Assembly: GCA_015060335.1 (NCBI GenBank)
Contig: SUYR01000009.1
Span: 1 to 64,000, forward strand
From: Bacteroidales bacterium
Lineage (GTDB): Bacteria; Bacteroidota; Bacteroidia; Bacteroidales; UBA932
Direction of reading: 5' to 3'
Length of the DNA stretch: 64,000 nt
This document shows, piece by piece, positions 32,547 to 40,835 of this stretch; positions within the stretch are counted from its first letter, which is position 1; each line of letters opens with the position of its first letter. The translations under genes were made by a program, and so were the position numbers. The notes under the pieces are model-generated. The model was not told the origin of the DNA, made no database searches, and saw only the letters and a list, made by a program, of their open reading frames with translations.

Positions 32547-33635
32547 ATGAAACACACATTCTCAATACTCCTTTCTGTTCTGTTCTGCCTTTCGGCATCA
32601 GCACAGACCATCAGTTGGCATAATGCCGCCGATTTTACCATCATCGGCAAGCCCATACAGACAGCAAATCCGTTTACGCGCATTGATACGGCGATGTATA
32701 AGTTCAACGACAAGACAATAGACTGCTATGCCGGTTATTCCACTGGTCTTGCAGTCCTTTTTGAGACGGACAGCCGCACTATCCGTGCGAGATGGACCAC
32801 AGGAAGCGGCAACTCCGGCGACAATATGGCCGCCATCGGACAGAAAGGTCTCGACCTGTATATCATGAAGGACGGACGGTGGGTATTTGCCGGAGTCGGG
32901 AGACCTGACATGAAGAAAGCTCCTTTCAGCCATCATGAAAGCAAGATTGTGTCGGATATGCCTGAAGGAAACAAGCAGTGTCTGCTGTATCTTCCTCTTT
33001 TCGACAGGACGGACTGCCTTGAAATAGGAATAGATGAGGAATCAGAAATCAGGTCTCTTGCCAATCCTTTCAGCCACCGCATTGTGGTTCACGGTTCCAG
33101 TATCACCCACGGAGCATCAGCCAGCCGTCCCGGGATGACCTATCCCGCGCGTTTCGGGCGGGACAATGGTCTCTATTGCATGAATCTCGGTTTCAGCGGA
33201 ACATGCGAGCTCCAGAAGGAATACGCTGAGTATCTGGCAGATATAGAGGATGTGGATGCTTTCATCTTCGACACATTCTCCAATCCGGATGCTGGGGAAA
33301 TACGCGAAAGATTCGATGAGTTTGTGGATATTGTCAGGCGGGCGCATCCGGATGTCCCGATGATTTTCCTTCAGACCGTGCGTCGTGAGACACGTAATTT
33401 CAGCATGTCTAAAGAGGAGTACGATGCCGCAAAACAGGCAGCTGCGGTACAGGAGGTCACTGAGCGGATGAAAACCGACAGACATATCTATTTCATAGAT
33501 TCGGCGGATTTCCTCGGAAATGAACACATCGCCACAGCAGACGGCACGCATCCGACCGACCTTGGATTTACCTATATGCTTGAGGCCATGTCTCCGAAGA
33601 TAAAGAAGATATTGAAGAAATACGGCATCAGATAG
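32547..33635 (+). CDS. SGNH/GDSL-hydrolase family protein, secreted (paralogue of 14587-15675)
   Basis: VHGSSITHGASASRPGMTYPARFGRDN ... ADGTHPTDLGF; signal peptide. Confidence 0.8.
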   Translation: MKHTFSILLSVLFCLSASAQTISWHNAADFTIIGKPIQTANPFTRIDTAMYKFNDKTIDCYAGYSTGLAVLFETDSRTIRARWTTGSGNSGDNMAAIGQKGLDLYIMKDGRWVFAGVGRPDMKKAPFSHHESKIVSDMPEGNKQCLLYLPLFDRTDCLEIGIDEESEIRSLANPFSHRIVVHGSSITHGASASRPGMTYPARFGRDNGLYCMNLGFSGTCELQKEYAEYLADIEDVDAFIFDTFSNPDAGEIRERFDEFVDIVRRAHPDVPMIFLQTVRRETRNFSMSKEEYDAAKQAAAVQEVTERMKTDRHIYFIDSADFLGNEHIATADGTHPTDLGFTYMLEAMSPKIKKILKKYGIR

Positions 33636-34923
33636 AGCCGTCTGAAGACCATAGCGGGTGCTGCCGGAGATTGCCGTTAAGGGACAATTCCCTTGCCGGA
33701 ACCGGCAGCACTGTGTATTTCTTCCCGACACCTGCGGCTTCTTCATATCTTCCGGTCCGTACAAGATCATACCATCTGAACCCCTCTCCGAAGAGTTCGA
33801 GCCTTCTTTCATGCAGGATTGCATCTAGGAATTCCTCTTCGTCAGAGGGGTATACAGGCTCAAGTCCTCGGAATATGCGCAGTTCGTTAAGTCTCTGCAG
33901 ACCTTTTTCGAGGCCCTGACATTCTGCACTGATAAGATACATCTCCGCGAGACGGACGATATATATCGGGTCCGTACCGGCATCTCCGCCGCAATATTTG
34001 TTCATCACTTCATTGTTACCCTGCATTGCTATTGATATCTCCTTCCTGCTGTCTGTCTCCGAATACATCGTCATAGCCTCTGCAGTCGGACGGAAATTGT
34101 ATGCGCCTCCCACGCCTGATTCCTTGGTGTAATAGTATGAACTCATATTCACCTTGCTTTCGTGCACGATGTTGGCGAATGAGAAGATTTCCTCCTTGTT
34201 CTCTCCGCCTCTGAATATACTTCTGAAGTCGGACAGTTCGAAAGCCTCGTCTGAGATAAGGCTTTCCGCGAGTCTTGCGGCATCTTCCTTTCTGCCCATC
34301 GCAAGGTATGTTCTGGCAAGGAGTGCCTGAGCCGCCTGCTTGGACACATAGTTCTTGTCACTGAAATCCGGAGCCGTCCCGACAGCCCTGACCAGTTCGC
34401 TTTCAATGAATTTCCATACCTCCTCTTCAGGTTGCTGCGGACAGTTTTCTCCTCCTTCACCGGTAATGACCGGGACATTCCTCCATCGTGTGACAATATT
34501 GTAATAGTACAGTGCTCTGAAAAAACATCCTGTCCCGAGCAATTCGTCTTTTCTTTGTGATGCAGGAAGTTTCTCTACAAGCGAAATAACAGTGTTTATC
34601 TGGTATAATCCGGCAAAATATCCGTTCCACGGGCTTGTGACCAGACTTTTGTCCGGTGCTATGGCAGATTCTACCATCAGTTTCGGCGTATTGACGCTTG
34701 TCGCTCCCGTGCGGACGATGTCTCCGCCGATCAGATCGAACAATGCCCAGCCGTTGAACGTCGGCTTGTATTGGGCGATGTTGTACATGCCTGTGACCAT
34801 TAGTTCCGCATGCTCTGTCGTTATCCTGTCTGCCGAAACCGCATTGCCGGGATACTGGTCAAGGTACTTCCCGCAACCGGCGGAAAGCATGAGGACAAGT
34901 GATATGACGGATATTCTCTTCAT
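33628..34923 (-). CDS. RagB/SusD-family lipoprotein
   Basis: Lipobox LSAGC; AILHERRLELFGEGFRWYDLVRTGR...LPVPARE. Confidence 0.92.
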   Translation of the reverse strand: MKRISVISLVLMLSAGCGKYLDQYPGNAVSADRITTEHAELMVTGMYNIAQYKPTFNGWALFDLIGGDIVRTGATSVNTPKLMVESAIAPDKSLVTSPWNGYFAGLYQINTVISLVEKLPASQRKDELLGTGCFFRALYYYNIVTRWRNVPVITGEGGENCPQQPEEEVWKFIESELVRAVGTAPDFSDKNYVSKQAAQALLARTYLAMGRKEDAARLAESLISDEAFELSDFRSIFRGGENKEEIFSFANIVHESKVNMSSYYYTKESGVGGAYNFRPTAEAMTMYSETDSRKEISIAMQGNNEVMNKYCGGDAGTDPIYIVRLAEMYLISAECQGLEKGLQRLNELRIFRGLEPVYPSDEEEFLDAILHERRLELFGEGFRWYDLVRTGRYEEAAGVGKKYTVLPVPARELSLNGNLRQHPLWSSDGSI

Positions 34924-34927
34924 GATT

Positions 34928-37900
34928 CTATAACTGTATCTTTACTCCGAAGGAGAATGTCCTCGGTTGTGGTAACCACATGTTGTCCAATCCCATCTTT
35001 GTAGCATCAAGGCTGCTGTTTACCTCCGGGTCTATGAACCGGTAAGGCGAGATCAGGAATAGGTTATCAGCCTGTATATAAATTTTCAGCAAGTCCATCC
35101 CAACCTTTTTTGTTGCCTTTGCCGGCAGCGTATAACTTAAGGACAGGCTTTTGCAGCGCAGGTATGATGCGTCATGCAGATAGCGGGTGCTGATGAATCT
35201 GGTGGAGTTCCATGTCATCCCGTAGATTGCTCTCGGTACCGAATCGCTTGTTCCGGGACCCGTCCATCTGGCAAGTGCTTCCGATTCCTGCGATGGCCAC
35301 AGACCATTGCCGAGCCTCAGACCTCCGTTCCATATCTGATAGAGATTGTTCCCGTACGAGAATGCAAACAGGAGACTCACGTCGAAACCTTTCCATGAGA
35401 ATGTGCTTGAAAGCCCTCCGGTGAACAGCGGATTCGCCGAACCGCAAAACTGACTGTCGCCTGCAGTATCTATGTCACCGTCGCCATTGACATCTTCATA
35501 CATCACGTCACCGGCGCGCACTCCCTGCTCATACTGCTTCTTCGGCACATCTTCATCTTTCTGGTAGATTCCGAGCATCTTTATCATATAGAAACTTCCC
35601 ACTTCCTCTCCTACCTTCAGGGCATGGTATGAGCCGCTTGTCAGAATCCCGTCGTCATCTGTAAGCTCTGTAAGGCGGTTCCTGACGAAACTTATGTTGA
35701 ATCCTCCCTGCCATCTGAAATCACCTTTCCCAATATTGCCTTCCAGTGTGATTTCCAGACCGTCGTTTCTCATCGCGCCTATATTGCACAACTGGTTGGT
35801 GAATCCGGACGTGGCCGTTACAGGTTTGTTGTAAAGAAGATCTTTAGTGTCTTTCCTGAAGATGTCGGTCTCCACTTTCATCCGCCCTGCAAAGAAGGAC
35901 ATTTCCGCACCGATGTTATATTGCAATGCCTTTTCCCATCTGAGATCTCTGTTCCCTTGGGTCATCATGGCTATGCCGCTTTCATTGATGTAGTTGTAGC
36001 CTCCGTTGGCAAGTGCCTGAAATGCGTATGCACCGATTCCGCCCTGATTTCCGGTCATTCCGCAACTTGCCTTGATCTTGATTCTTGTGTTTGAGTCTTT
36101 CCAGAACGGTTCTTCCGACAGAACCCATCCTCCCGAAACGGAGGGGAAAAACCCGTATCTGTGCTCAGGTGCGAATTTGGATGAACCGTCTGTCCTTGCC
36201 GACAGCGTGAGCATATAGCGTCTGTGCCAGTTGAGTGTGGTCCTGAAGATTACCGACTGCATCGCCCAGGATGAACGTCCCGTGGAAATGTCAAGATATT
36301 CAGCAGCCACGGAGTTCTGCGAAAAGTCTTCGGAGGGGAAGCCTTGTCCGGTCTGTGACGAGGTGGATGACACGTCCTGCTGGAATGTATGTCCGAGGGT
36401 GGCATCGAGGGCAAGACCGCAGCCGAAAGCCTTGCTGTAATTGATGATGTTGTCTGTGACAAGTGAACTGTAGACCTTTCTGGCATCGGTGAGTTTGCCT
36501 ACAGAGTTGCCGTACATGTGCTTGGAGTTATAATAGATATAGTCTTCCGTGTACATGAAGTCTCCTCCGACATCAGAGCGGAATGACAGCCCGTCAAGGA
36601 TATTCAGCCTGATATATCCCTTCCCGATTATCCGATAATTATTGTTGAATGCATTCTGTTCGTTTAGGGCCTGCAGGAGATTGTAATGCAGCAGGTCCTT
36701 GTCCTTTATGGTATAGGAACCGTCTGCATGGTAAGGAACATCCCATGGTCGATGTTCGAGGGCATGGGTGAGCATGGATGTCCCCATGTTTCCGTTGGGC
36801 ACATGGTGGGTGTGGTTGTAGTTCGCGCTCAGATTGATTCCGGCTGACAGCCATCTCTTGATGTCGCATTCGAGATTTGCCCTCACTCCGTATTTCTCTG
36901 CCTTGTTCCCGATAATGACACCCTCGTTATGCCGTACATTCGCCGATATGTAGTATCGGCTTCTGTCTGTGCCTCCTGATACTGAAGCACTTGCCTTCCA
37001 TGATATGGCTGTCCTCAATACAAGGTCTGCCCAGCAGAACTGTCCTCTTTCAGGATAAGGATTGACAATATGGGACACATTCTCTCCTGTCTGCCTGTTG
37101 TAGTTGTCGATGGCTTCGTTCTGTACTTCAAGATACAGGTCAGCATCTGCGACTTTCAGTTTTTCCAGATCCGGTATATATGACAGACTCATTCCCGCAT
37201 CTGCACTTATTTTAGGCGCCCCCTTGACCCCCTTCTTAGTTGTGATGAGTATTACACCGTTGGTCGCCCTTGAACCATAGATTGCGGCTGATGCCGCATC
37301 CTTGAGCACCTGTATGGATTCGATGTCGCCGGGGTGGATGTCGGTCAGAGCACTGGTCTGTTCGCCTTCCCAGCCGCCCGCATCGGATATGGTGTTGCTG
37401 ATAGGAATCCCGTCCACGACATACAATGGCTCGTTTCCCGCTGTCAGTGAGCCGATTCCCCTGATGCTCACCCTGCTTCGGCTTCCGATGCTTCCGGATG
37501 ATGCCTGTACGTTCACGCCGGCAATCCTTCCCTGAAGCAGGGCATCCACTCCGCAATATGCTCTTCCTGTGATTTCTTCCGGATCCATGCTGCCGATTGC
37601 AGATGATATGTCCCTGCGATGCATGCTGCCGTATCCTACGATGACCGATTCTTCGAGCAGGTTCACTACCGGATGGCTCTGTATTGAATCTCTGTCTGCT
37701 CTTGCTGCGACAGGGATAATGAAAATCGTGTTCCCGTCGATTACCGCTTCAGTCCCTGTCCTCTTCAGAAGTGCCTTAAGAGTCTGTTCGAGATTTTTTC
37801 CATTGGGGGGGGAGCAACTGTCTTATCTGCGTTCAGGAATTCTTCGTTGTATGCTATAGTGTGTCCGCTCTGCTCTTCAATAAGGACAAAAACCTCCCGA

Positions 37901-38004
37901 AGGGCCATTCTGCCTTTCGGAAAGTTGATAGTCTGCTGTGCGTCAACTCTTAAATGACTGAGAAGTGCTGTCAGGACGCAGAAGCAAAGAGTCAGGTTTC
38001 TCAT
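34928..38004 (-). pseudogene. SusC-family TonB-linked OMP with N-terminal STN domain, frameshifted at a poly-C tract (plus-strand G8 at 37805-37812)
   Basis: ORF 37765-38004 gives signal peptide plus start of STN; ORF 34928-37666 gives plug and barrel. Joining frames across the tract gives ...VAPP(P)NGKNLEQTLKALLKRTGTEAVIDGNTIFIIP...EESVIVGYG. Confidence 0.85.
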
Positions 38005-38024: not shown

Positions 38025-38918
38025 TTATCTGATATATACGTCAGTGCCTTCAAGCGAATATGTCATGCCGGGGACAAGGCGGCAGATAGCATCCAGCAAC
38101 TGTTCAAGTGTCTCGTCGTTTATGAATTTGGCTGTCAGTACCGCGCTGTCATATCGGTCGTCTGTCATGTGAATGTCTATGTCAAATCTCCTTTCGAGCA
38201 TTGCAAACACTTGAGCAATAGGCATTGACCTTATAACGATGTCTCCGTCCTTCCATGCACATGCTTCTTCTGCGTTTGTCCTGCCTGATGTGAGCGTGCC
38301 GGAATGTTTGTCATAACCGGCATATTGCCCCGGTTCAAGGCTGACTGTTCCGGACTTGTCCTTTCCAGACGGGGTGATATCGATTTTCCCGCTGCACAAG
38401 GTTGCACATGCCGTCGGACCGGTGGGGTAGTCCTGAACGTTGAATACTGTTCCATGTGCCGTTACCGTTATATTGTCGGTATTTACCGTAAAAGGATGTC
38501 TTTTGCTTGCTGTCACCTGAAAAAATCCCTCTCCCGAAAGTGTTACGGCTCTTTCCTTGCCGAATCTTTCAGGGTATGTCAGTGTGGAACCTGCATTCAG
38601 GGTGACTATGGAGCCATCTGAAAGAGTGACTTCCTGTATTTCCCCGTCAGGGACGGTAATCTCTGCAAATGCAGTTTCCGGCTGTGTGCTGCGGACTATA
38701 TGCCATGCAAGAGGCGAGACCACGGCGAGAACGACAACTGCGGCTGCGACTGCTGCTCTTCTTATGCGTGTACTCCGCTTCTTCATAAGCATGAGTGTCT
38801 GTTCCTTCTCGATTGTCTTGGCCTGCTGCATGACGGTATCGAATGAAGCCTCCACCTCATCTGTTCCTACGGATGAACCGTCGATATCCTCCCAATCTTT
38901 GAATTTATATGATAACAT
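38025..38918 (-). CDS. FecR-family anti-sigma regulator
   Basis: Single TM then FecR core (ITVPDGEIQEVTLSDGSIVTLNAGSTLTYPERFG..GEGFFQV) and DUF4974-like C-terminus. Confidence 0.92.
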   Translation of the reverse strand: MLSYKFKDWEDIDGSSVGTDEVEASFDTVMQQAKTIEKEQTLMLMKKRSTRIRRAAVAAAVVVLAVVSPLAWHIVRSTQPETAFAEITVPDGEIQEVTLSDGSIVTLNAGSTLTYPERFGKERAVTLSGEGFFQVTASKRHPFTVNTDNITVTAHGTVFNVQDYPTGPTACATLCSGKIDITPSGKDKSGTVSLEPGQYAGYDKHSGTLTSGRTNAEEACAWKDGDIVIRSMPIAQVFAMLERRFDIDIHMTDDRYDSAVLTAKFINDETLEQLLDAICRLVPGMTYSLEGTDVYIR

Positions 38919-38980: not shown

Positions 38981-39523
38981 TTACATGAACAATATGATGA
39001 CCTTGGTGAGTTTTCTTAATTCTCTCAATGCCAGATTGATATGATTCTCTACCGTCTTTCTGCTGATTCCCAGTGTTTCGGCTATTTCCTTGCCTGTCCT
39101 CCCTTCCAATCGGGACATTATGAAGACCTTTCTCCTTTTTTCCGGCATTTCCGCTACGGCATGGCTGATCTGGACCTGAAGTTCCTTTGCGAAAAATCCG
39201 CTCTCCGTTTCATAATCACGTTCACTTGCAGTTTCCACAGCATCGAGAGGGATCCGAATCTTATGGATGCGTCCGTAATCAATGGCAGCATTCCGTGTCA
39301 TCGTGTACAGGAATGCACTGAACGACCTCAACTCAGGCAACAGGCGTCTTTGCAACCATATCTTTACAAATATATTCTGGGCGACATCCTTTGCGTCGTC
39401 CTGATTCCCGATGAACTGCCCGAGGAAGACTTTTACCTTAGGGTAATAATGCACGAACATCTCCTTGAAGGCACTTTCGTCCCCCATGGAGATATTCGAC
39501 AGCATTGTTTTCTCATCAAGCAT
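38981..39523 (-). CDS. ECF RNA polymerase sigma-70 factor
   Basis: Region 2 (AKDVAQNIFVKIWLQR) and region 4 (RRKVFIMSRLEGRTGKEIAETLGISRKTVENHI); start at MLDEK. Confidence 0.9.
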   Translation of the reverse strand: MLDEKTMLSNISMGDESAFKEMFVHYYPKVKVFLGQFIGNQDDAKDVAQNIFVKIWLQRRLLPELRSFSAFLYTMTRNAAIDYGRIHKIRIPLDAVETASERDYETESGFFAKELQVQISHAVAEMPEKRRKVFIMSRLEGRTGKEIAETLGISRKTVENHINLALRELRKLTKVIILFM

Positions 39524-39527
39524 CCCT

Positions 39528-40835
39528 TTATTTCTGTCTAAGGAACACCTGCACGGGGCATCCCAGGAAGTCAAAATTACTTCTAAGCTTGTTTTCAAGG
39601 AATCTTCTGTAAGGCTCGCGGATATACTGCGGCAGGTTGCAGAAGAATGCGAATGAAGGCGAGCGGGTAGGGAGTTGTGTCACGTACTTGATCTTGATAT
39701 ACTTTCCCTTCCATGCAGGCGGAGGATAGTTCTCTATCTCCGGCAACATCACCTCATTGAGCTTTGATGTGCTTATCTTTCGTGAGTAGTTCTCATATAC
39801 ATGGGCGGCTGCATCAAGTACATCCATGATTCTCTGCTTGTTGATCACGGACGTGAATATGATAGGCAGGTCATTGAAAGGCGCAAGACGCTCCTTGATT
39901 GCCTGTGTATATTCCTTCATGGTGTTGCTGTCCTTCTCGATGGTGTCCCATTTGTTCACGACCACCACGCATGCCTTCTTGTTTCTCTGGATAAGGTTGA
40001 AGATAGCCATGTCCTGAGACTCAATGCCTGTCTGAGCGTCTACCATCAGGATACATACGTCAGAATGCTCGATAGAGCGTATCGATCTCATCACAGAGTA
40101 GAACTCCAGGTCTTCGTGCACCTTTGTCTTCTTTCTCATGCCGGCAGTGTCCACAAGCATGAACTCGTGACCGAATTTGTTGTATAGGGTAGCTATTGAA
40201 TCACGGGTTGTACCTGCAATAGGAGTGACAATGTTCCTCTCTTTGCCAAGGAGTGCATTGGTGAGTGACGATTTTCCCACATTAGGCTTTCCTACGATTG
40301 TGAAGTGAGGAAGCTCCGGGTGCTCGTCTGTGTCCGGATCTTCTGCAGGAAGTTCCTTTATAATCGCATCCAGAAGGTCTCCGGTACCGCCTCCGTTAGC
40401 TGCTGATATGCTGTAAACTTCTCCCAGACCGAGAGAATAGAACTGGAACGCATCGTACATCTTTTCGCCAGAGTCAATCTTGTTCACAGCCAGGATGACA
40501 GGCTTTCCGCTACGGCGCAGGATGTCAGCGATTTCCTCGTCATAGTCAGTTATTCCTGTACCTGCCTCTACAAGGAAGAGCACCACGTGGGCCTCTTCAA
40601 TGGCAAGAACAACCTGCTTGCGGATCTCCTCTTCGAATATGTCGTCAGAATTGGATGTGTATCCGCCGGTATCGACAACGGAGAATTCCGTTCCGCACCA
40701 CTCACATCTTCCGTAGTGTCTGTCACGGGTCACGCCCGCTGTCTCATCTACGATTGCCTGCCTCATACCTACGAGGCGGTTGAAAAGTGTGGACTTACCT
40801 ACATTAGGACGTCCGACGATTGCTAATAAGCTCAT
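39528..40835 (-). CDS. der: GTPase Der (EngA), ribosome biogenesis
   Basis: Tandem GTPase domains ([32 protein letters not shown]) and KH-like C-terminus. Confidence 0.98.

Follow-up and report, generated by a model that had tools for sequence, protein, structure and literature searches.

Is a susC gene whose reading frame ends at a run of eight cytosines, with the rest of the gene intact, a young pseudogene, an error of the assembly, or the OFF allele of a switch? The gene in question lies in the window, by which we mean the whole stretch of 64,000 nucleotides that was analysed, and comes from an 86% complete draft assembly in 54 contigs, probably a MAG. Here, we give a modest preference to the view that the window gene represents the OFF state of a SusC switched by slippage, belonging to a repertoire that would be run mostly by poly-G tracts in signal peptides. 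The locus comprises the following features, listed with the evidence for each.

33628..34923, minus strand: susD gene, 431 aa, intact (Pfam SusD_RagB, SusD-like_3)
34928..37804, minus strand: rest of susC, with the end of the STN domain, the plug and the beta-barrel (translation, Pfam, solved SusC homologs)
37765..38004, minus strand: truncated susC frame, 79 aa, with the signal peptide and the first part of the STN domain (ORF list; Pfam STN in the read-through and in orthologs)
37805..37812, minus strand: C8 homopolymer, site of the frame break (sequence, pattern search, ORF list)
38025..38918, minus strand: fecR-type anti-sigma gene, 297 aa, intact (Pfam FecR, FecR_C)
38981..39529, minus strand: ECF sigma factor gene, intact (Pfam Sigma70_r2, Sigma70_r4_2)

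The coding strand, which is the minus strand, reads GTTGCT-CCCCCCCC-AATGGAAAAAATC at the break, that is, GCT-CCCCCCCC-AATGGA, and both the sequence and a pattern search give a C count of exactly 8 at positions 37805-37812. The frame that starts with ATG at 38004 is closed by a TGA at 37765, after 79 aa (ORF list), whereas a different frame runs open from 37804 to 34928, 958 codons in all, with no second lesion in its translation. The ORF list and the sequence agree with an earlier, sequence-only reading of this DNA that C8 closes the susC frame at 79 aa, and the further claim of that reading, that C9 restores the frame into an otherwise intact SusC, holds as well, as the 958 open codons contain plug and barrel; to this we add that C6 is equally an in-frame length. 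The run is located at about codon 64, in the 5' part of the susC reading frame, and it is there that the frame is lost. The idea that a C8 is in itself a rarity within the window was rejected: shuffled 64-kb sequences contained a mean of 0.76 C8/G8 runs, and about half of them (49 of 100) had at least one. What is noteworthy about the window C8 is that the break falls exactly at the run, that the gene is otherwise intact and that the genome has its runs concentrated in SusC genes.

Which kind of receptor does the break affect? The window gene fits a SusC/RagA TonB-dependent transporter, with a Plug domain (2.7e-19) and a TonB barrel (2.9e-17) identified by Pfam in the 958-codon frame, with SusC homologs as its closest solved relatives (8aa4_A, E 3.4e-107), and with an adjoining susD gene. 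The tract had been placed within an STN domain by the sequence-only reading, and this is borne out by Pfam, in the window read-through with an E-value of 1.3e-4 and 22.1 bits, hence below the Pfam cut-off of 28.4, and in the ortholog L117 with 6.8e-8 and 32.6 bits, above the cut-off. The same reading had fecR and ECF sigma genes next to susC; both are identified by Pfam and intact, and they lie upstream of susC, with susD downstream. Judged by this layout, in which an STN domain is combined with adjacent fecR and ECF sigma genes, the window gene fits a putative FecIR-type signalling receptor. A carboxypeptidase-regulatory-like domain before the plug is usual for SusC/RagA proteins, though not universal. 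Such a domain is absent from the window SusC (34928-38004) and from its closest orthologs, in which the STN leads directly to the plug, and is present in more distant orthologs.

How might this gene be switched? Gain or loss of a C at replication would move susC between OFF and ON lengths. The OFF state, C8, would give an exported fragment of 79 aa that has neither plug nor barrel, and the ON state, reached at C9, C6 or another length that keeps the frame, would give a receptor of some 1,025 aa. In the OFF state the transporter would be gone and the cognate ECF sigma factor should stay unstimulated, because FecR would receive no outer-membrane input; expression of susD may drop too, by polarity. 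The sequence-only reading had transport and signalling toggled together through the position of the tract in the STN domain. A joint toggling would still be expected, but the reason given for it does not hold: plug and barrel are encoded beyond the break, the receptor is lost as a whole, and signalling would fall silent together with transport for that reason, the location of the tract in the STN being immaterial. We infer slippage, switching, reversibility and a signalling effect for the window gene. On the scale of the repertoire, G/C runs, chiefly G8 in the signal peptide, would decide which SusC genes are ON and which are OFF.

The distribution of such runs across the MAG bears on this proposal. 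The pattern search returned 19 distinct G/C runs of at least eight (22 overlapping matches), a total that is not high, and an unusual genome-wide number of runs was accordingly rejected. Their location is a different matter: when all 19 were read in frame, eight proved to fall in SusC genes and six of these in signal peptides on the coding strand, for example MSPIKQFTLALTCVLTLM-GG-AAYAQ. The binomial probability of this clustering is 2e-6 for the eight in SusC genes and 3e-13 for the six in signal peptides, on the assumption that about 41 SusC genes (an approximate count) make up some 5% of the DNA and that all positions are equal. When about 39 SusC N-termini were surveyed, nine genes had a G/C run of at least six before the plug: five with an in-frame G8 in the signal peptide (L073 and L074 on contig C32, L077 and L078 on C36, L071 on C23), which would be ON, one with an in-frame G8 in a regulatory-like domain, and three that are out of frame, all of them at G/C runs, namely the C8 of the window, a G9 on contig C4 (4071) and a G6 on contig C9. 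In the G9 and G6 genes the signal peptide, which starts with ATG, is read in one frame and the SusC body in another, the change of frame coming at the run, and G8 would be an in-frame length for both (L063/L014, C4 at about 4071, and L009, C9 at about 65,300, respectively). No further frame-broken SusC was found among the clearly visible N-termini of the MAG, which leaves aside a few that lie at a contig end or whose start is ambiguous. The orthologs of the G6 gene (L290-L292) have intact signal peptides without poly-G, and its tract is therefore recent or species-specific. The candidate phase switch put forward in the sequence-only reading is supported in part, and indirectly: besides the frame break and the intact remainder, some eight further SusC genes have a G/C run in the N-terminal region, and two of them are likewise out of frame exactly at the run. 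A mutator background is unsupported, MutS being full length and intact. Runs of eight slip slowly under working mismatch repair, and the intact MutS counts against the proposed switching.

Are the signal-peptide runs maintained as runs? GGG is the rarest glycine codon in the SusC genes of this genome, at 2.3% of all Gly codons. Gly-Gly is encoded as GGGGGG in 5 of 11 instances within the first 35 codons of SusC genes, a count that leaves out the two other OFF genes, versus 1 of 189 beyond codon 40 (p=1e-6). For one SusC on contig C36, orthologs were picked by protein similarity, blind to tracts, and among the eight with Gly-Gly at the site seven have GGG GGG, all seven as an exact G8, and the remaining one has GGT GGA. 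The G8 in signal peptides matches what would be predicted for a maintained slippage tract, and codon usage does not explain it. For the window C8, the only observations that bear on tract upkeep are the rarity of CCC (4.3% of Pro codons in these SusC genes) and a single ortholog, L089, that has C8. The case for switching is stronger for the signal-peptide G8 genes than for the window tract, to which the other SusC runs lend their backing by analogy, since it is a poly-C in the STN domain and not a poly-G in the signal peptide.

The orthologs of the window susC allow the tract to be seen in its family context. The scan covered GTDB species genomes and the genus and gave some 40 orthologs, most of which, where a source is named, come from ruminant-gut MAGs. 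The STN is open in all orthologs with a visible N-terminus and none is out of frame at the tract site. The closer orthologs have two or three proline codons at the tract position, and both spacings are found, VAPPK.. with 20 residues and VLPPPTES.. with 21. L089 alone has its C8 at the tract site, in frame, and the others have no run of six, which counts against switching of the window tract.

These prolines also suit the main rival explanation, an accidental one-way frameshift in which a run made up of neighbouring proline codons slipped once and left a very young pseudogene. The window run differs in base and in place from the other SusC runs, as this explanation would have it, and there is a precedent in the meningococcal siaD tract, which has been reviewed as accidentally mutation-prone, with no evolved switching (PMC11868660). 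We nonetheless regard an accident as unlikely, given that 958 codons follow without a second lesion, that fecR, the sigma gene and susD are intact, that the CCC codon is rare in these genes, and that the genome has two more SusC genes in an OFF state of the same kind.

Still less probable is that the break arose in sequencing or assembly, or in a consensus of mixed strains, and that the actual gene is intact, with a run of in-frame length. Homopolymers are the usual site of such errors, the source is a draft, probably a MAG, and the uniformly in-frame orthologs would be in keeping with an intact gene; however, one A8, four A7 and one G6 of the window sit in intact reading frames, and errors are not general because other SusC genes of this genome with G8 are in frame. 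Programmed -1 ribosomal frameshifting, which the sequence-only reading also named as an alternative, or transcriptional slippage, by either of which the C8 gene would yield a full-length receptor, is very improbable. C8 followed by GGAAAAAATC does allow -1 re-pairing (by inspection only), but the predicted fold of the next 80 nt is no more stable than that of shuffles (z +1.14, in a model free of pseudoknots) and the out-of-frame arrangement occurs in no ortholog at this site.

If slippage has indeed put the window gene in an OFF state, how far would the repertoire reach? A pattern search of the genus found the same arrangement in G163 (in many SusC genes), G032, G176, G021, G007, G146, G019, G059, G053, G115, G018 and others. 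Almost every tract at the loci inspected in these other species is an in-frame G8. Copies whose frame is lost at the tract were seen as G9 in G163, G059 and G038 and, once, as G8 in G168. The genus set was collected by runs of at least eight and therefore provides no frequencies. Relatives of the G9 gene of the MAG have G8 in frame in other species (L162, L176). A different picture comes from 40 SusC genes of related genomes that were chosen by similarity regardless of tracts, in which neither a G/C run of at least six in the region checked nor a break was found (run-bearing SusC genes, 9 of 39 in the MAG versus 0 of 40, p=0.001). The absence of runs from these 40 places the trait mainly in particular species and gene families. 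In a pattern scan across the order, with 116 genomes from other genera among those covered, none of the matches that were read was a SusC signal peptide, and just two other exported proteins (L340, L342) came up among them. We judge the chances to be evenly balanced that some species of this uncultured, mainly ruminant-gut genus have a slippage-switched receptor repertoire, in which a selected poly-G would mark the signal peptides of many SusC genes and G/C tracts would lie elsewhere in a few, independently of Bacteroides invertases, and in which the sigma signalling of STN receptors would be switched too.

Trans-envelope signalling of the FecI/FecR/FecA type with a SusC receptor is established. 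The window locus is like this system in having an ECF sigma factor, a FecR anti-sigma factor and an STN receptor in one gene order, and unlike it in that the receptor is frame-broken in this assembly. With respect to switching, the closest comparison is with hmbR and hpuA of Neisseria meningitidis, in which TonB-dependent haemoglobin uptake is established to be switched by poly-G (PMC3786947). Here too a nutrient-uptake system of the outer membrane has a G run in its reading frame, certain lengths of which are ON and others OFF. In contrast to Neisseria, where switching is proven, it is proposed here, in a different phylum and in the SusC family, with many paralogs per genome that have the run in the signal peptide, and with a window gene that has poly-C in the STN domain. 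In Bacteroides fragilis, SusC/SusD phase variation by a DNA invertase is on record (Nakayama-Imaohji 2009, as cited in PMC11868660). The proposed ON/OFF variation within a clone would be similar, whereas the means would differ, site-specific inversion there and homopolymer slippage within the coding sequence here. A literature search with poor coverage of subscription journals found no paper on poly-G in SusC signal peptides, which is weak evidence of novelty.

If this proposal is true, gut Bacteroidales would vary their SusC set by homopolymer slippage besides DNA inversion, and members of one clone could differ in glycan use, in sensitivity to phages and in sigma-factor signalling in a way that is hidden from gene content. 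Frame-broken susC genes in MAGs may then be OFF alleles rather than pseudogenes.

Finally, G/C runs were observed in several other contexts. Within the genus, the RGIG3959-like MAG G163 (L159-L168, L259-L288) has many SusC genes with poly-G in the signal peptide or in a regulatory-like domain, its out-of-frame G9 being L164; an apparent SusC break at L262 of this genome was rejected as a homopolymer case, as it is a single TAG. Non-SusC genes of lipoprotein-like or exported type also have in-frame G8 or C8 runs, three in the source genome (L070, L081, L072) and one in G163 (L160), and the slippage repertoire may thus extend beyond SusC. Five further loci of the source genome (L061, L060, L066, L079, L080) have G/C runs of 8-9 without a clear reading frame, some of them upstream of genes. 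Contig C33 of the same genome contains, at about 6814 and close to the contig end, a short array of CTATTTTACGTT units in tandem, with C8 in two of them (L075/L076).
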